From Geothrix terrae (GTDB taxonomy: Bacteria > Acidobacteriota > Holophagae > Holophagales > Holophagaceae): DNA of 64,000 nt. The stretch is taken from assembly GCF_022808775.1 (NCBI RefSeq), contig NZ_JAKZLA010000003.1, forward strand, positions 372,001-436,000, written 5' to 3'. The notes under the pieces are model-generated. The model did not search any database, had not been told where the DNA came from, and worked only from the letters and a program-made list of their open reading frames with translations. A program made the position numbers and the translations under genes. Each line of letters starts with the position of its first letter. The stretch's first letter is position 1. Positions 25,872 to 37,001 of this stretch are shown piece after piece.

Positions 25872-26148
25872 GGCGGAACCCTCCTGGTCCCTGGGAGTGT
25901 AGTCCGATTCCACCGGATTCCAGCCATTTAGGATCGTTATTGTCATCGCGCGTTTTTCCCATCATTACCTCTGGCATGTTGAACATTTCAGGCGCAGGAT
26001 CAGAGGCGTGGAAGAGTCGATCCCGTCCGGGAATCCTCTGACGGCTGGCTTGGCCTTCCAACTTCGGCACCCTCCGGGGGTCCCATGAAAAGCAGTGCCA
26101 CACCAGTTCGAGGGACGGTTCGCCCGTCACTCTGAGAGGGATGCCGAG

Positions 26149-28431
26149 ATGCCCTCCCCCCTGCCCGACCGCATCGCCTTCCTGGGCGGCTACCTTCCGC
26201 GGCTATGCGGCATCGCCACGTTCACTTCCGACCTCTGCGAGGCCGTCGCCCAGGCGGCACCCGAAACCCAGTGCTTCGCCGGAGCCGTGAACGATCGCCC
26301 CGAAGGCTATGAGTACCCTTCCCGCGTGCGCTTCGAGCTGGATGAGAAGGATCTGGATTCCTACCGGAGGGCCGCGGATTTCCTGAACTTCAACAACGCG
26401 GGCGTCCTCTGCATCCAGCACGAGTTCGGCATCTACGGGGGAGCGGCCGGAAGCCATCTCCTGGCGCTGCTCCGGGAAGTCCGAATGCCGGTGGTCACCA
26501 CCCTGCACACCATCCTGTCCGATCCCAACGCGGCCCAGCGGAAGGTGATGGAAGAGCTCGTCCGCCGCAGCGACCGCCTGGTGGTCATGGCCGAAAAGGG
26601 CGCGCAGATCCTGCATGACACCTACGCGGTGCCGGATGCCAAGGTGGACCTCATCCCCCACGGCATTCCGGACATGCCGTTCATCGACTCCAGCTTCTAC
26701 AAAACCCAGCTCGGCGTGGAAGGGCGCATGGTGCTGCTCACCTTCGGGCTGCTTGGACCCGGGAAGGGCATCGAATACGCCATCGAGGCGCTTCCGGACA
26801 TCGTGAAGCGGCACCCGAATGTGGTCTACCTCGTGCTGGGGGCGACGCATCCCCACCTCGTGGCCCGCGATGGCGAGAACTACCGCCTGAGCCTGGAGCG
26901 GCTGGCCGAGGACCGCGGCGTCAAGGAGCACGTGATCTTCTACAACCGCTTCGTATCCCTGGAGGACCTCAAGGAATTCATCGGAGCGACGGATATCTAC
27001 CTCACGCCCTATCTCAACGAGGCGCAGATCACTTCGGGCACCCTCGCCTATGTCTTCGGCGCCGGCAAGGCTGTGGTTTCCACTCCCTACTGGCATGCCC
27101 AGGAATTGCTCGCCGACGGTCGAGGCATCCTCGTCCCCTTCCGTGATCCCCGGGCCATCGCCGAAGGCGTCTGCGCCTACCTGGACGACCCGGCCCGCCT
27201 GGAAACGACGCGGCGTGAGGCCTACCGGCTGGGGCGCGCGATGATCTGGCCCGCGGTGGCCCAGAACTTTCTGGAGTCCTTCCAACGGGCCCGCTCCGAG
27301 CGCCGGGCGATCCCGCGATCGGCCTTCGCCGGATGGACGCTCGCCAGCCGGCCCTACGACCTTCCTCCGCTCCGGCTCGATCACATTGCGCGCATGAGCG
27401 ACAGCACGGGCATCCTCCAGCACGCCACCTATACCGTGCCGAACTTCCATGAAGGCTATTGCGCCGATGACAACGCGAGGGCCTTCGTGCTGTGCAACCT
27501 GCTGGACGAGCTCGGAGGCCGTCCCCCCTCGGAGAGCATCGACCGCCTGGCCACGAGCTACCTCGCCTTCCTGGCCGCGGCCTTGAATCCCGACACCGGC
27601 CGCTTCAGGAATTTCATGAGCTTCGGGCGGCAATGGCTGGAGGAATCCGGCAGCGAAGACAGCCACGCCCGCGCGCTCTGGGCGGTGGGCACGGGCGCGA
27701 GCCGCTCCCGCAACCCGGGCCACCGGAAGCTGTCGGCTCAGCTTTTCGAGCGGAGCCTGCCGGCCACGGAAGCCTTTTCCTCCCCTCGCGCCTGGGCCTT
27801 CACGTTGCTGGGCATCCAGGAATTCCTCCACTCCTTCCCGGATCATTCCCAGGCCAGGTCCCTGCGCGAGATCCTGACGGCCAGGCTCATCGGGTTGTGG
27901 GAGGCTGGTGCCACCGAGGACTGGCCCTGGTTCGAATCCAGTGCCACCTACGACAACGCCCGGCTCTGCCAGGCCCTGCTCAACAGCAGCCAGGAGATGG
28001 CCCTTCCCGAGGCCCAGACGATCGGGCTCAAGTCCCTGGCCTGGCTGATTTCCGTCCAGAAAACCCAGGAGGGCCACTTCCGCCCCATCGGAAGCAATGG
28101 CTTCTATGTGCGGGGCGGCGTCCGCGCCTACTTCGACCAGCAGCCCGTGGAGGCCCAATCCATGGTCTCCGCGTGCCTTACCGCCTTCCGCGTCACTCAG
28201 GAGGACGTCTGGCTGCGGGAGGCGAAGCGGGCCTTCGAATGGTTCCTGGGCCGGAACGACCTGGGATTGCCGCTGTACGACTCCAACAGCGGGGGGTGCA
28301 GTGACGGGCTCCATTCGGATCGGATCAACGAGAACCAGGGCGCGGAATCCACCCTGGCCTTCCATCTGTCCCTCGCCGAGATGAATGTCGCCGAACACGT
28401 CATGGCGCCAGCCCCCACCCATACCTCCTGA
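26149..28431 (+). CDS. Two-domain protein: GT4 glycosyltransferase plus C-terminal helical (six-hairpin-like) domain
   Basis: 760 aa. Residues 8-395 form a GT-B, GT4-type glycosyltransferase: Rossmann start FLGGYLPRLCGIATF, HEFG at 91-94, GLLGPGKGIEYAIEAL at 200-215, and the donor-site Glu in EAQITSG at 291-297. Residues about 400-750 are a separate helical region (YCADDNARAFVLCNLL, WFESSATYDNARLCQALL, NENQGAESTLAFHLSL) that resembles (alpha/alpha)6-barrel glycosidase or epimerase domains. No signal peptide, so cytoplasmic. Stop and start of the GH130 gene share one base (TGATG). The pair probably builds and remodels a mannose-type glycan (inference). ATG 26149 was chosen with AGAGGG upstream. 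Confidence 0.8.
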   Translation: MPSPLPDRIAFLGGYLPRLCGIATFTSDLCEAVAQAAPETQCFAGAVNDRPEGYEYPSRVRFELDEKDLDSYRRAADFLNFNNAGVLCIQHEFGIYGGAAGSHLLALLREVRMPVVTTLHTILSDPNAAQRKVMEELVRRSDRLVVMAEKGAQILHDTYAVPDAKVDLIPHGIPDMPFIDSSFYKTQLGVEGRMVLLTFGLLGPGKGIEYAIEALPDIVKRHPNVVYLVLGATHPHLVARDGENYRLSLERLAEDRGVKEHVIFYNRFVSLEDLKEFIGATDIYLTPYLNEAQITSGTLAYVFGAGKAVVSTPYWHAQELLADGRGILVPFRDPRAIAEGVCAYLDDPARLETTRREAYRLGRAMIWPAVAQNFLESFQRARSERRAIPRSAFAGWTLASRPYDLPPLRLDHIARMSDSTGILQHATYTVPNFHEGYCADDNARAFVLCNLLDELGGRPPSESIDRLATSYLAFLAAALNPDTGRFRNFMSFGRQWLEESGSEDSHARALWAVGTGASRSRNPGHRKLSAQLFERSLPATEAFSSPRAWAFTLLGIQEFLHSFPDHSQARSLREILTARLIGLWEAGATEDWPWFESSATYDNARLCQALLNSSQEMALPEAQTIGLKSLAWLISVQKTQEGHFRPIGSNGFYVRGGVRAYFDQQPVEAQSMVSACLTAFRVTQEDVWLREAKRAFEWFLGRNDLGLPLYDSNSGGCSDGLHSDRINENQGAESTLAFHLSLAEMNVAEHVMAPAPTHTS

Positions 28432-29885
28432 TGACGATCCCTCTCCGTACCCACGATGTGACGCTCCTTCCCCAGAGCGCCCGGGTCATCATCCGCCCGT
28501 TCATCCCCTCCAGCTCGCATCGCATCACCACCATCCTCGGGCGGGCGCTGGCGCTGAGCGAAGCCGAGGCGGAGCGGAATCTGGCATCCATGCTGACGGA
28601 ATTCGCGTCCCGCCATCTCGACATCGAAACCCCGCTGCTAGCCAATTTCGAGCGGGTGCTTCCCCACATCTTCACGCACCGCCCTCTGTCCCACGCGCGC
28701 AAGCTCCTCATCGGCGCCCTCTTCTCCGGGGAGTACTCGCTCGAGTCTGCGGCCCTCTTCAACCCCTCGATGGTCCCGCATCCCGACCAGGCAGGGGTCC
28801 CGCCGGGCGCCCTGCGGTTCATCATGAGCCTGCGGGCCACCGGAGAAGGCCACATCTCCTCCATCGAGTTCCGGACCGGCCTCATCGACGCCGGGGGGGA
28901 CATCCACCTGGATCCCATCTCACCCTTCGTCAACCTGCCGGAGATCAACCCCAACCCCGACTATAAAAAGCTGCCCTTCACCGTCAAGCTGCACGAAATG
29001 GGCTTCGAGAACGGGAATGCCGCCATGGTGATGGACGCGCTTGGGGAGAGCTTCACCCGGAGCGACCTGAACCGCTGCGTCCTCCGCATCCGGCGCGAGA
29101 CCAGGCCCCTCACCCAGGATCTCAACAACACGCTCCGCTGCATCCAGTGGCTCGCCGATTCCAACTACGAGATCCACTTCGCCCCCAAGCTCGCCATGAG
29201 CGAGCGGATCATCTTCCCGGTATCGACGAACGAGAGCCACGGCATCGAGGATGCCCGCTTCGTCCGGCTCGTCGAGGACGATGGGGCGGCGATGTACTAC
29301 GCCACCTACACCGCCTACAACGGGCACGCCATCCTGCCCCAGCTCATCGAGACCAAGGACTTCCTCCACTTCCGCATCCTCACGCTCAACGGCACCGCGG
29401 TCCAGAACAAGGGCATGGCGCTCTTCCCCCGGCGGATCGATGGCAACTACGTGATGCTTTCCCGCCAGGACGACGAGAACCTCTTCATCATGTTCTCGGA
29501 TAACCCCCACCACTGGAGCGATTCCACCGTGCTCCTCCGGCCCGCGGAGATGTGGGAATCCGTGAAGATCGGGAATTGCGGTTCGCCCATCGAGACCGAG
29601 GCGGGGTGGCTGGTGCTCACCCACGGTGTCGGGCCCATGCGCAAGTACTGCATCGGGGCCGCCCTGCTCGACCTTCACGATCCGACCAGGGTCCTGGGCC
29701 GCCTGCAGGACCCCCTGCTGGTGCCCGAGGGTGCCGGAAGGGAAGGCTACGTGCCCAACGTCGTCTACAGCTGCGGCGCCCTCCTGCACGGCCGGGACCT
29801 CGTCCTTCCCTACGCCATGAGCGACCGGGCCTCGACCATCGTGAGCCTGCGCCTGGACGACCTGCTCGAGGCGTTGCGGGCCTGA
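28431..29885 (+). CDS. GH130 glycoside phosphorylase/hydrolase family protein
   Basis: 484 aa. GH130 enzymes phosphorolyse or hydrolyse beta-mannosidic bonds in mannosyl-glucose and mannooligosaccharides. The likely proton-donor Asp is D274 in GIEDARFV. Basic residues of the type that bind phosphate in phosphorylase members occur in NKGMALFPRRI and GPMRKYCIGAAL, favouring a phosphorylase. There is an N-terminal extension of about 200 residues relative to the shortest members. No signal peptide. Translation is coupled to the upstream GT4 gene by a one-base overlap. Confidence 0.85.
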   Translation: MTIPLRTHDVTLLPQSARVIIRPFIPSSSHRITTILGRALALSEAEAERNLASMLTEFASRHLDIETPLLANFERVLPHIFTHRPLSHARKLLIGALFSGEYSLESAALFNPSMVPHPDQAGVPPGALRFIMSLRATGEGHISSIEFRTGLIDAGGDIHLDPISPFVNLPEINPNPDYKKLPFTVKLHEMGFENGNAAMVMDALGESFTRSDLNRCVLRIRRETRPLTQDLNNTLRCIQWLADSNYEIHFAPKLAMSERIIFPVSTNESHGIEDARFVRLVEDDGAAMYYATYTAYNGHAILPQLIETKDFLHFRILTLNGTAVQNKGMALFPRRIDGNYVMLSRQDDENLFIMFSDNPHHWSDSTVLLRPAEMWESVKIGNCGSPIETEAGWLVLTHGVGPMRKYCIGAALLDLHDPTRVLGRLQDPLLVPEGAGREGYVPNVVYSCGALLHGRDLVLPYAMSDRASTIVSLRLDDLLEALRA

Positions 29886-29994: not shown

Positions 29995-31704
29995 TCACAC
30001 GGGGTCCAGCCGGCGCGCGGATCGCGCGGACCTGTCGAACAGGCTGAACCCGTAGGCCAGGGCCACCACGGCGGCGCACCCGATGAGGTTGTACCAGAGG
30101 AACGAGATGCGGGTGAACGTGAAGCAGAGCAGCACGCCGGCTTCCGCCGCGAGGGCAGCGTAGAAGGCCGTGCCGCCGCGGGCGCGCTTGACGTAGAAGG
30201 CCGTGATGAAGATGCCGAGGATCGTGCCGTAGAAGAGGGAGCCGAGGATGTTCACCGCTTCGATGAGGGAGCCCAGGCGGGCGGCGTATTCGGCGAAGGC
30301 CATGCCGAAGCAGCCCCAGGCGAACGTGGCGATGCGCCCCACCCACACCTCGCGCGCGCCTCGGCTGCCGCCGATGAGGCGGCGCCAGAGGTCCACCACC
30401 GTGGTCGCGCCCAGGGCGCTGATCTCGCCCGACATGGAGGACATGGAGCCCGAGAAGACGGCGGCCAGCACCAGGCCCACCAGCCCGGCGGGCAGGCTGC
30501 TCAGCACGTAGGCCAGGAAGATGTAATTGACGTCGCTGGGATGGGTACCCGGATTGGCCTTTTCGATGAGGGCCAGCCCCTTCTGCCGCACGGCATCGCT
30601 CTCCGCCTGCGCCTGCTGGAGCTGCCGCTTGGCACCGGCGATCGTCCCCGCGTCCCCGGCGTGCCGGGCGGCCACGAAGGCCTCGGCCCGCTGGCGCTGG
30701 GCCTCGCGGGCCCGGGCGTAGTCCGCCTCGAGGGCGCGGTAGGCCGGAGCCTCCGGGCCCGCCAGGACCTGCTTCACGGGGCCCGGGTTGAAGAAGAGCG
30801 GCGGCGCGTGGAACTGGTAGAAGGCGAAGACCAGCACGCCCAGCAGCAGGATGAGGAACTGCAAGGGCACCTTGACCATGCCGTTCAGCAGGAGGCCGAG
30901 GCGCCCCTGGGTGAGGGAGCTGCCCGCGAGGTAGCGCTGCACCTGGGACTGGTCCGTGCCGAAGTAGGAGAGCATGAGGAAGAAGCCTCCGATGAGCCCC
31001 GACCACAGGTTGTAGCGGTTGTTCAGGTCGAAGCGCAGGTCGACGGCGTTGAGCCGCCCCAGCCCTCCCGCCACATGCAGGGCATCGCCGAGACTCACAT
31101 GGGCGGGCAGGCGGTGGATGGTCATCACGCCCGCCAGGATCATCCCGAAGGCGATGATCACCATCTGCGAGCTGTGGGCCCAGGCCACGGCCCGGGTCCC
31201 GCCCACCACCGTGTAGGTCATGACCAGCACGCCCACCAGCAGGATGTTGGCGTGGATGCTCCAGCCCAGCAGCACGGAGAGGACCAGGGCCGGCGCGAAG
31301 ATCGTGATGCCCACCGAGAGGCTGCGCTGGATCAGGAAGAGGCCGGCGGCGAGGAGCCGGGTCTTCAGGTCGAAGCGGGCCTCCAGGATCTCGTAGGCGG
31401 TGGAGACCTTCAGGCGGTGGTAGAGCGGAAGGGCCGTCATCGAGAGGACGATGGCGGCCAGCGGCAGGCCGAAGTAGAACTGCACGAAGCGCATACCGTC
31501 CACGTAGGCCAGGCCCGGCGTGGAGAGGAAGGTGATGGCGCTCATCTGCGTCGCGATGATCGAGAGGCCGATGAGCCACCAGCGATGATCGCGCCCGCCG
31601 CCGATGTAGGCTTCTCCCGAGGTGACGCCGCGGCCCTTGTAGAGGCCCCAGCACACCACGGCCAGCAGGGCGCCGCCGAGGACGAGCCAGTCGAGCCGGC
31701 TCAC
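29995..31704 (-). CDS. Sodium:solute symporter (SSS family)
   Basis: 569 aa, about 13 hydrophobic segments. Family marks are GGRDHRWWLIGLSIIATQMSAITFLSTPGLAY near the N-terminus (Na+ site region) and SGSMSSMSGEISALGATTV in the second half. A charged helical insertion of about 65 residues (from EADYARAREAQRQ to ALIEKAN) interrupts the membrane core between central helices. Start is GTG at 31704, overlapping the stop of the upstream microprotein by 4 nt (GTGA). It ends the operon PIG-L - microprotein - SSS; the solute is probably a sugar or amino-sugar derivative (inference). Confidence 0.9.
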   Translation of the reverse strand: MSRLDWLVLGGALLAVVCWGLYKGRGVTSGEAYIGGGRDHRWWLIGLSIIATQMSAITFLSTPGLAYVDGMRFVQFYFGLPLAAIVLSMTALPLYHRLKVSTAYEILEARFDLKTRLLAAGLFLIQRSLSVGITIFAPALVLSVLLGWSIHANILLVGVLVMTYTVVGGTRAVAWAHSSQMVIIAFGMILAGVMTIHRLPAHVSLGDALHVAGGLGRLNAVDLRFDLNNRYNLWSGLIGGFFLMLSYFGTDQSQVQRYLAGSSLTQGRLGLLLNGMVKVPLQFLILLLGVLVFAFYQFHAPPLFFNPGPVKQVLAGPEAPAYRALEADYARAREAQRQRAEAFVAARHAGDAGTIAGAKRQLQQAQAESDAVRQKGLALIEKANPGTHPSDVNYIFLAYVLSSLPAGLVGLVLAAVFSGSMSSMSGEISALGATTVVDLWRRLIGGSRGAREVWVGRIATFAWGCFGMAFAEYAARLGSLIEAVNILGSLFYGTILGIFITAFYVKRARGGTAFYAALAAEAGVLLCFTFTRISFLWYNLIGCAAVVALAYGFSLFDRSARSARRLDPV

Positions 31705-31814
31705 GAGAAGACCCAGGCGAGGAGGCGAAGACCCAGGACGCAGAGCAGCAGGTCGGCCAGGACCAGCAGGTACAGGCGCTTCCAGGTGCCCATGAGCGGC
31801 GGGGCGTCAGTCAT
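31701..31814 (-). CDS. 37-residue single-pass membrane microprotein
   Basis: ATG 31814, stop 31703-31701. The protein begins MTDAPPLMGTWKRLY and continues as one hydrophobic helix with LLVLADLLLCVLGLRLLAW. Its ATG lies inside the last codons of the PIG-L gene (8-nt overlap, ATGACTGA) and its stop overlaps the GTG of the SSS gene by 4 nt. Overlap on both sides argues for a real, coupled gene. It may be a small partner subunit of the symporter, by analogy with other SSS transporters that have tiny membrane partners. I do not recognise the family. Confidence 0.65.
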   Translation of the reverse strand: MTDAPPLMGTWKRLYLLVLADLLLCVLGLRLLAWVFS

Positions 31815-34386
31815 GGGCGTGCCCCAGGGCCAGCAGGTTGGCGAAGAGCCGGGTGGCACCGGGCACCCCGTCTGGCAGCTGGCGGAAGAAGGACAGGCCC
31901 GTGTACACGTAGTGGCCCTTCCCGTGCCGCGCCACGATCAGGGCCCCGGCGTCCTCGGCTTCGCCGGGATCCGCCATGCCCAGCAGGGGCGTGTAGCGGG
32001 AATCCCAGCCCTCGGCATGGTAGAGGCTACGCTCCTGGACCCAGCCGTCGAAATCCTGCGGGGTGATCTCGTTGGGCCAGTGGAACACGGGATGTCCCGG
32101 CTGGAGGAGCCGGACCGGCACCGTCTCCACGGTGACCCGCTTCCGGCCCACCTTGAAGGGATAGGGGCCGATGGCCTCTGTGACCATGGCGGCGTTGATC
32201 CCGGGGATGCCCGTGTTCACGGTGTAGAGCACCAGCTCGGTGCCGCCTGCGGCCACATAGGCGTGGAGCCGCTCCTTGAGGGTCTGGAGGGCCGGTCGCG
32301 TGTTGAAGGCGCGGATGCCCAGCACGAGGGCATCGAACCGCCCGAGGTCCTCCCGGGCCAGCGCCTCGTCCGTGAGGAGCTCCACCTCGTAGCCGACGCG
32401 CCGCAGGGCCTGGGGGATGTCGTCGCCGGCGCCCATGACATAGCCGATGCGGCGGCCGTCGTGCTTCAGGTCGAAGCGCGCCAGGCGCACCTTCGCCTCG
32501 GGCAGCAGCGTCTGCAGGGGGATGTGCGGGTGGTCCACCACCACCAGGCTGCGGGCGCCCGTGAAGCCCACGCCCAGGTCCACCTCGGCGCGCAGCTCGC
32601 CGGAAGCGGCCGCGGCCGGCGGCGTGACGTGGAAGACCAGCTCTTTCTTCTCGCTGGCATGGGCCAGGGCGAAGGCCTGCCCGGACGGGTTCACGGCCCA
32701 GCCCGCGGGCACCCGGAGGCGCACACGCCCCGAGGCGGCCGCGCCGCCGGCCAGCACCTGGAGGCGCACCTCCTTCGCGGCCGGCGTCTCAAAGGCCAGG
32801 ACGGAGTCGGCGAAGGTCACGAGCGCAGCCGGCACCACCGCCAGCGGGTGGTACCGCTCGCCCAGGACCGGATCCCGGAACCGGAACTTCACGGGCACCG
32901 TGACCTCGAAGGGGCCGTCCGCGGTCTCCAGGCGGGCCCGGAGGCGGAAGGGCGCCGGGGATTCGGGGAGGCCCGCCCAGGCTTCCGCGCCCGGCCCTCC
33001 CAGCCAGTGGGGCTGACCCAGGGGCGCGTCCACCGGCACGGTGAAGGAGAAGGCGGTCTTCTTCGGCGCATTGTCCGGCAGGAATGCGCCCTCCGTGCGC
33101 GACTCCAGGACACGGCTGCCCTCCGGCCGGACCGATTCCAGCGCGAGGGATTCGAGGGTCAGGGACGCGCCGCCGCGCGCCAGCAGCGCGGCATTCACCG
33201 TGAGCCGGTCGCCGGGTGCCAGGCGCTGGCGGTCGGCGATGGCCTCCACCCAGAGTCCGGCCGCCGCACGGATCGCATCCTCCAGCTCCGCGGCCTTGGC
33301 CTGGACCACCGGCTCGGCCAAGGTCTCGGCGGGCAACGCGCGGAGGGCCTGCAGGGCACGGACCAGCGGCGGCAGGCTGGCGACGGGGTGGTCCGGCCGG
33401 AAACCCTCGCGGGCCTCGCGCAGGAGGGCGGCGAGGCCGCGGGTGCCGCGGAAGCGGGACCAGGTGAGGTCGATCCCCTCGAAGAGATCCCCCGTGGCGG
33501 GCCGGCCGTCGAGGCGCTCGAAGGTCTCCAGCCGCCGGCCCCGCTGGGCCAGCACGCCGAAGCCCTGGCTGCGGTGCTGGCTGCGGCTCTCGGCGGCCAG
33601 CTCGCCATAGGAGCGGCCCAGCAGCGGGTCGAAGGCGCCCACATCCAGCGTGAGGCTCCCGGCGGGGGGCGCCGGGGCGTCGTCGGTGAAGAGGTAGTGG
33701 TTCCACAGCAGCCGCGTGGCCTGCCACGGGCGGAGGCCGGCCGCAATCTGCTCCGGGAAGCGGCCCGGATCCGCGGCGGCCTTGAAGGCCTCGATGGCCA
33801 GCAGGGCCGAGGCGATGTGGTGGCCGTGCCCCGCCCGCGCATCGGGCGGGAACCGGGTGAGGATGACGTCCGGCTTGAAGGCGCGGATGGTCCGTACCAC
33901 CTCGGCGAGGACCCGGTCGTGGCCCCAGATCCGCAGGGACTCCTCTGCCGTCTTGGAGAACCCGAAGTCCACCGCCGACGTGAAGAACTGCTCGGCGCCG
34001 TCGATGCGCCGCGCGGCCAGCAGCTCCTGGGTGCGGATGGCCGCGAGGCCGCCGCCCAGCTCCGGGCCGATGAGGTTCTGCCCGCCCCCGCCCCGGGTGA
34101 GGGCCAGGTAGGCCGTGCGGAGGTTGCGCCCCTTGGACAGGGTGGCGAGCACGGCGGTGTTCTCGTCATCCGGGTGAGCCGCGATGTAGAGGACGCTGCC
34201 CACGGTCTGGAGGCGGTCCAGCTGCTTCTGGAGGTCTGCCCCATCGCGGACGGGTACCTGGGCCCCGAGCCAGGGGCCCAGGACCGCCCCCAGGACGAGG
34301 AGGAGGATCCAGCGCAGGGTCCGCCCTGGGGAGCGTCCAAAGCCAGTGGCGGGGGGAAGGGCGCGCGTGGAGGAGCCTGGCTGCAT
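31807..34386 (-). CDS. PIG-L (LmbE) family deacetylase with long C-terminal extension
   Basis: 859 aa. A signal peptide/anchor (about 24-43) is followed by the zinc-dependent deacetylase domain with AAHPDDENTAVL (H71, D73, D74) and the distal His-rich AGHGHH (186-190). The rest (about 260-859) is beta-rich sandwich-like sequence ending in a glutamine-amidotransferase-like region (LGIRAFNTRPALQTLKERL). Such long forms are exported and thought to remove N-acetyl groups from amino sugars. ATG 34386 puts the signal peptide at the N-terminus; the SD is weak. First gene of the operon with the microprotein and SSS symporter. Confidence 0.85.
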   Translation of the reverse strand: MQPGSSTRALPPATGFGRSPGRTLRWILLLVLGAVLGPWLGAQVPVRDGADLQKQLDRLQTVGSVLYIAAHPDDENTAVLATLSKGRNLRTAYLALTRGGGGQNLIGPELGGGLAAIRTQELLAARRIDGAEQFFTSAVDFGFSKTAEESLRIWGHDRVLAEVVRTIRAFKPDVILTRFPPDARAGHGHHIASALLAIEAFKAAADPGRFPEQIAAGLRPWQATRLLWNHYLFTDDAPAPPAGSLTLDVGAFDPLLGRSYGELAAESRSQHRSQGFGVLAQRGRRLETFERLDGRPATGDLFEGIDLTWSRFRGTRGLAALLREAREGFRPDHPVASLPPLVRALQALRALPAETLAEPVVQAKAAELEDAIRAAAGLWVEAIADRQRLAPGDRLTVNAALLARGGASLTLESLALESVRPEGSRVLESRTEGAFLPDNAPKKTAFSFTVPVDAPLGQPHWLGGPGAEAWAGLPESPAPFRLRARLETADGPFEVTVPVKFRFRDPVLGERYHPLAVVPAALVTFADSVLAFETPAAKEVRLQVLAGGAAASGRVRLRVPAGWAVNPSGQAFALAHASEKKELVFHVTPPAAAASGELRAEVDLGVGFTGARSLVVVDHPHIPLQTLLPEAKVRLARFDLKHDGRRIGYVMGAGDDIPQALRRVGYEVELLTDEALAREDLGRFDALVLGIRAFNTRPALQTLKERLHAYVAAGGTELVLYTVNTGIPGINAAMVTEAIGPYPFKVGRKRVTVETVPVRLLQPGHPVFHWPNEITPQDFDGWVQERSLYHAEGWDSRYTPLLGMADPGEAEDAGALIVARHGKGHYVYTGLSFFRQLPDGVPGATRLFANLLALGHAHD

Positions 34387-34536
34387 GGAAGTCCCTTGGT
34401 CCGAACGGCCAGCATAGAGTGCCAGCCGGGCGTCTCCAAGGAAGAGACATTGCATGGCGGCCTGGGAACCGGCAGCGCCCGCCAGAGGGTGGCTTCGTGA
34501 GTTCGGTTCGTCCCCAAATGGAGCCTCTGAATCATC

Positions 34537-34578
34537 TACGAAGATTTTCGTTGACGGCTACGAAACATGTCGTATCTT
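34537..34578 (+). promoter_or_regulatory. blaI promoter with two TACGA-type operator dyads
   Basis: -35 TTGACG (34551-34556), 16-nt spacer, -10 TATCTT (34573-34578). A perfect dyad TACGA-N6-TCGTA (34559-34574) fills the spacer, and a second dyad ACGAA-N4-TTCGT (34538-34551) abuts the -35. BlaI/MecI/CopY repressors bind dyads of this layout, though with TACA/TGTA half-sites in the studied cases. Autoregulation is inferred. Confidence 0.65.
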
Positions 34579-34608
34579 TTCGGCATTCCTCTCCTGGAGC
34601 CCCTTCCC

Positions 34609-34992
34609 ATGACCCCTTCCCCCAAGCCCACGGACGCCGAGCTCGCCATCCTGCGGGTGCTCTGGGAGCGGGGGCCCAGCACGGTGCGGCAGGTCTTCGA
34701 GGTGCTGGCGTCCGAGCGGGAGCTGGGCTACACCACCGTGCTGAAGATGCTCCAGATCATGCATGAGAAGGGACTGGTGGCGCGGGACGTCACGGACCGG
34801 ACCCATGTGTTCTCCGCCCGCGAGTCCCAGGTCCAGACCCAGCGGCACCTGCTGGACGATCTGCTGGACAAGGCCTTCGGGGGCTCGTCCCTCAGCCTCG
34901 TCATGCAGGCCCTGGCCACGCGCCGGGCCAGCCGCGAGGAGCTGGCGGAGATCCGGAAGCTGCTCGACCAGGCCGAAGGAGGGAAGCGATGA
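34609..34992 (+). CDS. blaI: BlaI/MecI/CopY family transcriptional repressor
   Basis: 127 aa winged-helix repressor: PTDAELAILRVLWERGPSTVRQVFE, recognition region GYTTVLKMLQIMHEKGLV, wing with FSARES, then the C-terminal dimerisation helices. In this family a partner M56 protease triggers cleavage and derepression. The stop overlaps the M56 start by 4 nt (ATGA). ATG 34609 matches the family start with GGAG 10 nt upstream; the ATG at 34567 lies inside the operator dyad. Confidence 0.92.
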   Translation: MTPSPKPTDAELAILRVLWERGPSTVRQVFEVLASERELGYTTVLKMLQIMHEKGLVARDVTDRTHVFSARESQVQTQRHLLDDLLDKAFGGSSLSLVMQALATRRASREELAEIRKLLDQAEGGKR

Positions 34993-37001
34993 ATCCCCTG
35001 CTCTCTGTCGTCCGTGAGCCCTGGGCCCAGTCCCTGGGCTGGAGCCTTCTCCATTTCCTTTGGCAGGGCGCCGCCCTGGGCCTGCTGGCCTGGCTGGGAC
35101 TGGCCCTGCTGCGGGGCGCCAGCGCCCGGACCCGCTACGGCGTGGCCTGCGCCGCCCTCCTCCTGATGGCCGCGGCGCCGGTGGCCACCTTCCTGTTCCT
35201 CCAGCGCCAGGCGGCCCTGGCGGAGCCCCTGCGCCTGGGGGTGGAAGCCTCCGGGATCCTGATTCCTGAGGCGCCGCTGCCCCTTCGGATGAAGATGGCC
35301 CTGGATCCCGCCCTGCCCTGGCTGCTGGGGACCTGGGCCCTGGGCGTGGTCCTGCTCTCCGCCCGCTTCCTCGGCGGCTGGGCCCGCGTGCAGCGCCTGC
35401 GCCGGCACGGGACCGCCCCGGCCCCCGCGGAATGGCATCTGGTGCTGTCGCGGCTCTGCCGGGAGCTGAAGCTCTCCCGCACCGTGCGCCTGCTCCGGTC
35501 CGCGGCGGTGGAGGTGCCCACGGCCCTGGGCTGGCTGCGCCCCGTCATCCTGCTGCCCGCCTGCGCCCTGGCGGGCCTGGCGCCCCAGCAGCTGGAGGCC
35601 ATCCTCACCCACGAGCTGGCCCACATCCGCCGGGGCGACTTCCTGGTGAACCTGCTCCAGTCCCTGGTGGAGGTCGCCCTCTTCTACCACCCCGCCGTGT
35701 GGTGGCTGTCGGCCCGCATCCGGCATGAGCGCGAGCTCTGCTGCGATGACGTGGCCGCCTCCCTCTGCGGCGATCCCCTGCTCCTGGCCCGCGCCCTCAC
35801 GGATCTGGAGGCCCTGCGCGAGGCCGCGTCCCCCGCCCCCCACCTGGCCCTGGCCGCCAACGGAGGTTCCCTCATGCACCGCGTCCGCCACCTGCTCCAG
35901 CCCGCCCTGCCCGCCTCCAACGCCGCCCGCGCCGCGGCCCTGGCCCTGCTGGCCGCCTCCCTGCTGGGGGCCGGCGTGGTCCTCCAGGACAAGGGGAAGG
36001 AACCCGCAGCCGAGCCCGAACCGGTCACCCGCATGAAGGTCATCGACGGCGACCGCAAGCTGGACCTGCAGGTGAAGGGCGACGTCCAGCTCGACGCCGC
36101 CGCCAAGGAGCCCGTGGCCGTCCCCGGGGACGGCAGCTTCCGCGTGGAGGAGAAGCGGGGCGGGAAGACCCGCGCCTACACCGCCTCCAAGAGCCGGCGC
36201 ACCTACACCGTGGACGGGAAGGAGCAGCCCCTGGACGCCGAAGGCGAGGCCTGGCTGCGGGAGGCCGTGAAGGAGGCGACCAAAGCCCAGAAGGCCCGGG
36301 ACAAGGCCCATCACATCGAGGTCCGCACGCGGCGCATGGACGCGCAGACCCGCGAACTGGACACCCACCTGAAGGAGCTGGACGCGCATCTGAAGGATCT
36401 CGACCGCCTCCCGGAGCTGAGCCCCGAAGAGCGCGCCAAGGTCCGCGCGGACATTGACAAGGCGCGGGCGGAGATCGAGAAGGCCCGTGCCGAGCGCCGC
36501 AAGGTGCGGATGGAGGTGATCCGGAAGAAGGGCGAGGCAGGGAAGAACGTGGAGATCCTCACCGAGGACGTGGGTCCCGACACGGTCGTGATCCGCAAGA
36601 GGGTGGATGGCAAGGACGTCATCGAGAAGCGCGTGAAGGTTCGTGGTGTGAAGAAGGGCGAGGGCGGCACCTGGACCTTCGTCGGCCCCGAGGACCAGGA
36701 CATGGTCGTGGAGGTCCCCGGGGACATCACCATCCCCCCCATCCACATTCCCGAGATCCACATCGACCACCCGGGCGTCGAAGCCGATCCCCAGGTGGAG
36801 ATCCGCGCCCTCCAGTCCGCCATGAAGTCCATGCAGAAGCGCCTGGATCAGCTCCAGAATCAGATGGCCACCACCCCGAACCCGCCCAAGGCCCCCCGGG
36901 CCCCGAAGCCCCCCGAACCTGCACCCCTTCCCCCGCCGCCGCCTCCAGTGCCGGACGCACCTCCGGCGCCGCCCGCGCCTCCCACGGAACCCGGAAACTG
37001 A
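34989..37001 (+). CDS. BlaR1/MecR1-like M56 membrane metallopeptidase with coiled-coil tail
   Basis: 670 aa. N-terminal membrane helices (about 16-40, 50-70, 107-128), zinc motif HELAH at 208-212 with downstream RHERELCCDD supplying the third ligand, and a fourth membrane helix around 313-330. The outer part is not a penicillin-binding sensor: it is a beta-rich segment, then a highly charged coiled coil (about 430-520), then a Pro-rich end (PPPPPPVPDAPPAPPAP). It likely senses something other than beta-lactams and cleaves the adjacent repressor. No beta-lactamase or PBP gene is adjacent. Confidence 0.88.
   Translation: MNPLLSVVREPWAQSLGWSLLHFLWQGAALGLLAWLGLALLRGASARTRYGVACAALLLMAAAPVATFLFLQRQAALAEPLRLGVEASGILIPEAPLPLRMKMALDPALPWLLGTWALGVVLLSARFLGGWARVQRLRRHGTAPAPAEWHLVLSRLCRELKLSRTVRLLRSAAVEVPTALGWLRPVILLPACALAGLAPQQLEAILTHELAHIRRGDFLVNLLQSLVEVALFYHPAVWWLSARIRHERELCCDDVAASLCGDPLLLARALTDLEALREAASPAPHLALAANGGSLMHRVRHLLQPALPASNAARAAALALLAASLLGAGVVLQDKGKEPAAEPEPVTRMKVIDGDRKLDLQVKGDVQLDAAAKEPVAVPGDGSFRVEEKRGGKTRAYTASKSRRTYTVDGKEQPLDAEGEAWLREAVKEATKAQKARDKAHHIEVRTRRMDAQTRELDTHLKELDAHLKDLDRLPELSPEERAKVRADIDKARAEIEKARAERRKVRMEVIRKKGEAGKNVEILTEDVGPDTVVIRKRVDGKDVIEKRVKVRGVKKGEGGTWTFVGPEDQDMVVEVPGDITIPPIHIPEIHIDHPGVEADPQVEIRALQSAMKSMQKRLDQLQNQMATTPNPPKAPRAPKPPEPAPLPPPPPPVPDAPPAPPAPPTEPGN

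Follow-up and report, generated by a model that had tools for sequence, protein, structure and literature searches.

What is the short reading frame that lies between a PIG-L-domain deacetylase gene and an SSS symporter gene in Geothrix terrae: is it a gene at all, and if so, with which of its two neighbours does its product work? The frame lies in the window, the whole stretch of 64,000 nucleotides that was analysed. We consider it highly probable that the 37-aa frame is a genuine gene and that it belongs to a widespread, unnamed family of inner-membrane proteins with a single helix, which are most likely accessory subunits of one clade of SSS symporters with the SiaT/SGLT fold.

Conserved coding in an overlapping 37-aa frame

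The operon and its boundaries consist of the following features.

26095-29885, plus strand: glycosyltransferase and GH130-type gene pair, convergent with the SSS gene; downstream operon boundary
29995..31704, minus strand: SSS symporter with a GTG start at 31704-31702 and a SiaT/SGLT fold, the presumed partner (PF00474, TIGR00813, structure match)
31701..31704, minus strand: overlap of the microprotein stop with the SSS start, 4 nt (GTGA)
31701..31814, minus strand: gene of a one-helix microprotein, 37 aa (sequence, frame conservation, family profile, helix model)
31807..31814, minus strand: overlap of the PIG-L stop with the microprotein start, 8 nt
31807..34455, minus strand: large deacetylase with a PIG-L domain, whose gene opens the operon (PF02585 with E 1e-16, and NPCBM_assoc)
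34567-37001, plus strand: Penicillinase_R (BlaI-like) and M56 peptidase (BlaR1-like) gene pair by Pfam, divergent from PIG-L; upstream operon boundary

The microprotein frame opens with an ATG at 31814 and closes with a TGA at 31703-31701, and its translation is MTDAPPLMGTWKRLYLLVLADLLLCVLGLRLLAWVFS. An earlier note had described a frame of 37 aa sharing 8 nt with the PIG-L gene and 4 nt with the SSS gene, and the coordinates proved to be exactly as claimed there. When the window was scanned against Pfam and NCBIfam, both flanking genes received names and the microprotein was left without a match. The symporter matches PF00474 (SSF) with an E value of 6e-33 and TIGR00813 above the cut-off, while the best NCBIfam score of the PIG-L protein is to mycothiol conjugate amidase (E 1.8e-14, below the cut-off). 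PIG-L orthologues occur in 23/41 genomes of the genus, most of the matches starting near residue 30-45, and the true start of the gene perhaps lies downstream of 34455. Within the genus, a close SSS is found in the same genomes as a close PIG-L (23/41, in a comparison that leaves out G438 as well as G250, whose SSS was found in the phylum-wide search), so the operon is gained or lost as a unit. At its boundaries, the M56 gene bears a long C-terminal extension, and the glycosyltransferase and GH130-type genes overlap by one base.

The ORF by itself is weak evidence, since the DNA is GC-rich and 62 ORFs of at least 30 aa overlap the surrounding 9 kb; it exceeds chance by its conservation and not by mere openness. 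In all 24 same-genus loci examined (L001-L019, L021 and L031-L034, leaving out G012, in which the SSS is split over two contigs) the frame is open and keeps the 4-nt overlap with the SSS start. Over a 33-codon core of these 24 loci, pN/pS was 0.449, as against a mean of 0.98 and a minimum of 0.556 in 100 column shuffles, and the entropies at codon positions 1, 2 and 3 were 0.55, 0.24 and 0.75, position 2 being the least variable and position 3 the most. Of the other two frames of the same strand, one is interrupted by stops in 3 of these 24 sequences and the other in 8. The variation in microprotein length among loci arises in the N-terminal stretch.

Family extent and co-occurrence with the symporter

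A search of 396 genomes of the phylum Acidobacteriota at E <= 1e-90 found the SSS in 151 of them, and no SSS match was seen in plasmid records. The window genome is assigned to the Holophagaceae of this phylum by L010, a locus of the same genus, whose SSS is identical to the one in L112, a named Holophagaceae record. Upstream regions were read at 60 further loci and at 80 named GTDB loci, which were fetched with an SSS alignment. The common pattern of the microprotein is E/D-x-P-P-x-F/L-x-S/T-W-x-x-x-Y-x-x-V, a hydrophobic run, and I-x-L-F-Y-x-F-T-x-x-F; with a first, permissive pattern it was found in 170/181 loci, a count that omits eight loci of distant paralogues (L023-L030). The same type of 4-nt overlap between microprotein and SSS is present in 111 of the 170 family loci. 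In five Chitinophaga loci (L161, L168, L170, L173, L182) and five Mucilaginibacter loci (L143, L162, L177, L185, L189) a second small hydrophobic ORF was seen just before the microprotein, with its end 110-165 nt upstream of the SSS start.

A profile of 41 positions (A3) was then available from 40 members, the window copy being among the training rows. With a threshold of E <= 1e-3 it matched upstream of the SSS on the same strand, and never on the opposite strand, in 78/80 named loci (54/56 for those outside the training set), and it gave 0/800 matches in shuffled regions. These loci span Acidobacteriota, Bacteroidota, Ignavibacteriota, Calditrichota and others, at least five phyla in all. 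The check proposed in the earlier note, that the frame be conserved in relatives which keep the operon, has thus come out in its favour both within the genus and across several phyla. The window copy, itself a training row, matches with an E value of 6.7e-13 as the sole match in its genome; it combines a profile match with a site just before the SSS clade, the two features by which we define the family. Exactly one profile match per genome was likewise found in 16/16 genomes reached via the named loci.

The co-occurrence with the symporter is near one-to-one when the microprotein is sought independently of it. A profile search of the same 396 genomes, some of which also contributed training rows, gave 129 matches, of which 117 lie directly upstream of a listed SSS on the same strand. 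Both genes are held by 126 genomes, the SSS only by 25, the microprotein only by 1, and neither by 244; 150 SSS places in 148 genomes had given 124/24/3/245, and the addition of G060, G206 and G278 brought the counts to these values. In Bacteroidota, the phylum of Pontibacter, 60/198 genomes have a profile match, and the SSS is directly downstream in 29 of 30 loci inspected out of the 60, a few of which repeat training loci. At the thirtieth (L295, about 1471-1776) the microprotein is followed by only a C-terminal remnant of the SSS, which looks as though a deletion had removed the symporter.

Three genomes that could have passed as microprotein-less were ruled out as such, as each holds a copy at a distance from its symporter. 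The gene order in G368 is PIG-L, microprotein, bshC, bshB1, bshA, SSS; in G422 (Aminicenantes, L134) the SSS follows bshC, bshB1 and bshA, with the microprotein 3.7 kb upstream; and in G423 (Saprospiraceae, L187) the SSS is on another contig and the microprotein is an orphan copy. The regions concerned are as follows.

L253 1-6446 (Acidobacteriota genome) and L134 1-4692 (Aminicenantes genome): complete bacillithiol operon (bshC, bshB1, bshA) between microprotein and SSS
L265 1504-1620 (Saprospiraceae genome): orphan microprotein, flanked by unrelated genes of the opposite strand

Such retention in trans indicates that the protein product itself matters. Among the 25 genomes with the SSS only, 19 have a divergent one-helix frame upstream, recognised by eye (G380, at a contig end, and G060 being left out of this reading) and scoring below or near the profile threshold; G216 has one at its third SSS copy, also by eye. 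These frames do not enter the count of 126 genomes with both. By profile search of the genome and by-eye reading of the region upstream of the SSS, no copy was detected in G336, G328 and G142, and since there are these few clade symporters without a detectable copy, the microprotein is not strictly obligatory.

Conversely, 12 of the 129 profile matches in the phylum lie away from any listed SSS. Three of them (L221, L227, L229) have an SSS at the contig end, G368 is the bsh operon case described above, and G323, G338 and G383 are near contig ends. Those in G168 and G207 are unlinked to a listed SSS, the family-like ORF having as its neighbour a gene recognised by eye as an ABC-type permease, and the weak matches in G244, G398 and G294 (E 9e-4, 0.008 and 0.009) are probably due to chance. 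In an SSS tree, made by a quick method and with long outgroup branches, the eight symporters that lack an adjacent copy branch at three places within the clade, and the paralogues L023-L030 fall outside it. From these three scattered places we infer that adjacency is probably ancestral and that separation or loss came later.

The bsh operons bear on what the symporter may carry. Bacillithiol is made from GlcNAc-malate, which is trimmed by a PIG-L-type deacetylase (BshB). A BshC match was found in 280/396 genomes of the phylum, far more than hold the SSS; with BshC so widespread its presence is uninformative, and only linkage counts. Among 87 phylum genomes with both listed, BshC is within 20 kb of the SSS in 23, and in 21 of these the two lie no more than 7 kb apart on one strand; these figures are drawn from the listed BshC places and cover several families with many close relatives. 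The nearness of SSS and bshC in these genomes suggests a bacillithiol-related substrate. Given this linkage together with that to PIG-L deacetylases, a glucosamine-containing compound is a reasonable guess for what the SSS transports. In the window genome BshC itself gave a weak match (E 9.8e-12, below the cut-off).

The helix and its possible role

In agreement with the single hydrophobic helix claimed for the microprotein, its AlphaFold2 model is one helix at residues 11-35 with a mean pLDDT of 92.5. The conserved positions (170 members, effective number 128) are W11, Y15, V18, L22, I26, F29, Y30 and F32, with F36 just past the helix, and they lie mostly on one side; the conservation moment of the helix was reached by 0/5000 shuffles. 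Lysine and arginine are commoner on the N-terminal side of the helix than on its C-terminal side in 124/170 members and rarer in 9, and the N-terminus is therefore predicted to be inside, in the cytoplasm.

The SSS model (pLDDT 85.5) superposes on SiaT (5nva) with a Z score of 43.1 and an rmsd of 2.2 over 462 aligned residues, and also matches SMCT1, NIS and the SGLT2 of MAP17 complexes (8hez, Z 36.5). The PF00474 domain and the fold together place the presumed partner in the SSS family. The match to SGLT2 stops near residue 552. The last predicted helices of the model are 537-555 and 559-564; the model terminates past the helix that aligns with TM12, and a counterpart of TM13 was not found in it.

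On this evidence we propose the following mechanism for an accessory subunit. The overlapping genes would allow the helix to be made just before or with the symporter; the overlaps are observed, and translation of the two genes may be coupled through them. The helix would insert with its N-terminus in the cytoplasm, its face of W, Y, V, L, I and F residues could pack on the scaffold side of the transporter, and it may aid the folding, stability or activity of the SSS and stay bound as its subunit. TM13 is presumably part of the immobile scaffold in SGLT-type transporters. Binding to the SSS and the function of the microprotein are inferred here from sequence and its conservation, and by co-localisation alone an assembly factor or a regulator would look the same as a subunit.

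A bolder possibility, which we regard as unlikely, is that the microprotein is a detached fourteenth helix replacing TM13 in trans, the two proteins forming a split transporter for bacillithiol-type glucosamine compounds released by PIG-L. It is prompted by the lack of TM13 in the clade and by the predicted inside-to-outside course of the microprotein, which is the one that TM13 should have. Going in part by PMC10803289, we take TM13 to lie beyond residue 552 of SGLT2 and to run in that direction. Among the clade rows read, no tail beyond the WYN motif exceeds 45 aa (41 aa is the most), nor was an extra C-terminal helix found in an SSS without an adjacent microprotein, so these symporters lend no support to a detached helix. 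The sequences as a whole speak neither for nor against the idea.

Somewhat less probable still is that the helix serves as an assembly, insertion or stability factor and not as a lasting subunit, for example as a shield from a membrane protease. The genetics of such a factor would be identical to those of a subunit, the microprotein gene precedes the SSS gene and hence is made first, and MgtU and MgtS, as described in PMC10710835, offer precedents. However, conservation of one face over its full length and across phyla fits a lasting interface better, although this is not decisive.

That the microprotein is a regulator which inhibits or tunes transport, as SgrT or AcrZ would, appears improbable: small regulators of transporters do exist (PMC10710835), but the gene overlap and the near one-to-one retention would indicate a standing component over a conditional switch.

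We think it very improbable that the microprotein partners the PIG-L deacetylase, even though that gene precedes it in the window and at many loci. At 17/80 named loci the flank, in some cases a short one, contains no PIG-L match, and 15 of the 17 keep the microprotein beside the SSS, which is its constant neighbour; the partner should therefore be the SSS and not PIG-L. The suggestion in the earlier note that the symporter has here a small subunit or a stabiliser is thus supported, by the frame kept throughout the genus, in nearly all the named loci and in these 15. Hardly credible is a leader cistron whose translation alone matters, starting the SSS by termination-reinitiation, as the frequency of the 4-nt overlap would allow, for the conservation across phyla extends to the amino acids themselves (W in 88% and Y in 98% of members by weight), and copies persist both ahead of bshC, at a distance from the SSS, and as an orphan, which contradicts this reading.

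If the microprotein is an accessory subunit, as we favour, work that expresses a clade SSS or solves its structure without the helix may deal with only half of a complex. The family further offers a testable genomic link that joins bacillithiol synthesis to SSS symporters and PIG-L deacetylases.

Known small partners of transporters

The kind of protein, a small one-helix accessory of a transporter, is known; the family itself is unnamed. No description of it was found in the open-access literature, searched by title and the opening of the abstract, subscription papers and preprints being outside this scope, and the word symporter occurs 0 times in PMC10903887 and PMC11456600. Scans of 40 members against NCBIfam and Pfam gave no convincing family model: at E <= 1 Pfam returned 15 families, the best at E 0.0085 (DUF6480, 3 members), with no partner family of SSS or NSS transporters among them.

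The NCBIfam model NF045580 ('symport_access'), whose long name we take to be symporter small accessory protein and which is presumably associated with symporters, describes a small protein like ours with a profile of 33 positions, but with a cut-off of 35 bits it matched 0/40 members at E <= 1 and nothing in the window genome. SSS partners of two helices are YjcH (with ActP), YhdT (with PanF), DUF4212 and DUF3311. Their genes likewise lie next to those of SSS transporters and encode small membrane proteins, but these are larger than the microprotein and none is among the Pfam matches of the 40 members. MetS-type proteins are small subunits of NSS transporters and are likewise made with a LeuT-fold symporter; they belong with another transporter family, however, and are absent from both scans.

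A further likeness is to MAP17 (PDZK1IP1), the auxiliary subunit of human SGLT2 and SGLT1, which is also a single TM helix partnering a transporter of SSS fold, as the microprotein would be. The likeness does not extend to sequence, no MAP17 chain being among the PDB sequences that the profile matched at E <= 10. MAP17 docks on TM13 of SGLT2, which follows the IL6 loop (PMC10803289), whereas this docking helix has no counterpart in the window SSS model or in the clade members read. Other one-helix accessory proteins of transporters, AcrZ and MgtS among them, are on record (PMC10710835). One-helix subunits of transporters have become known one by one; here a whole family tracks an SSS clade in at least five phyla.
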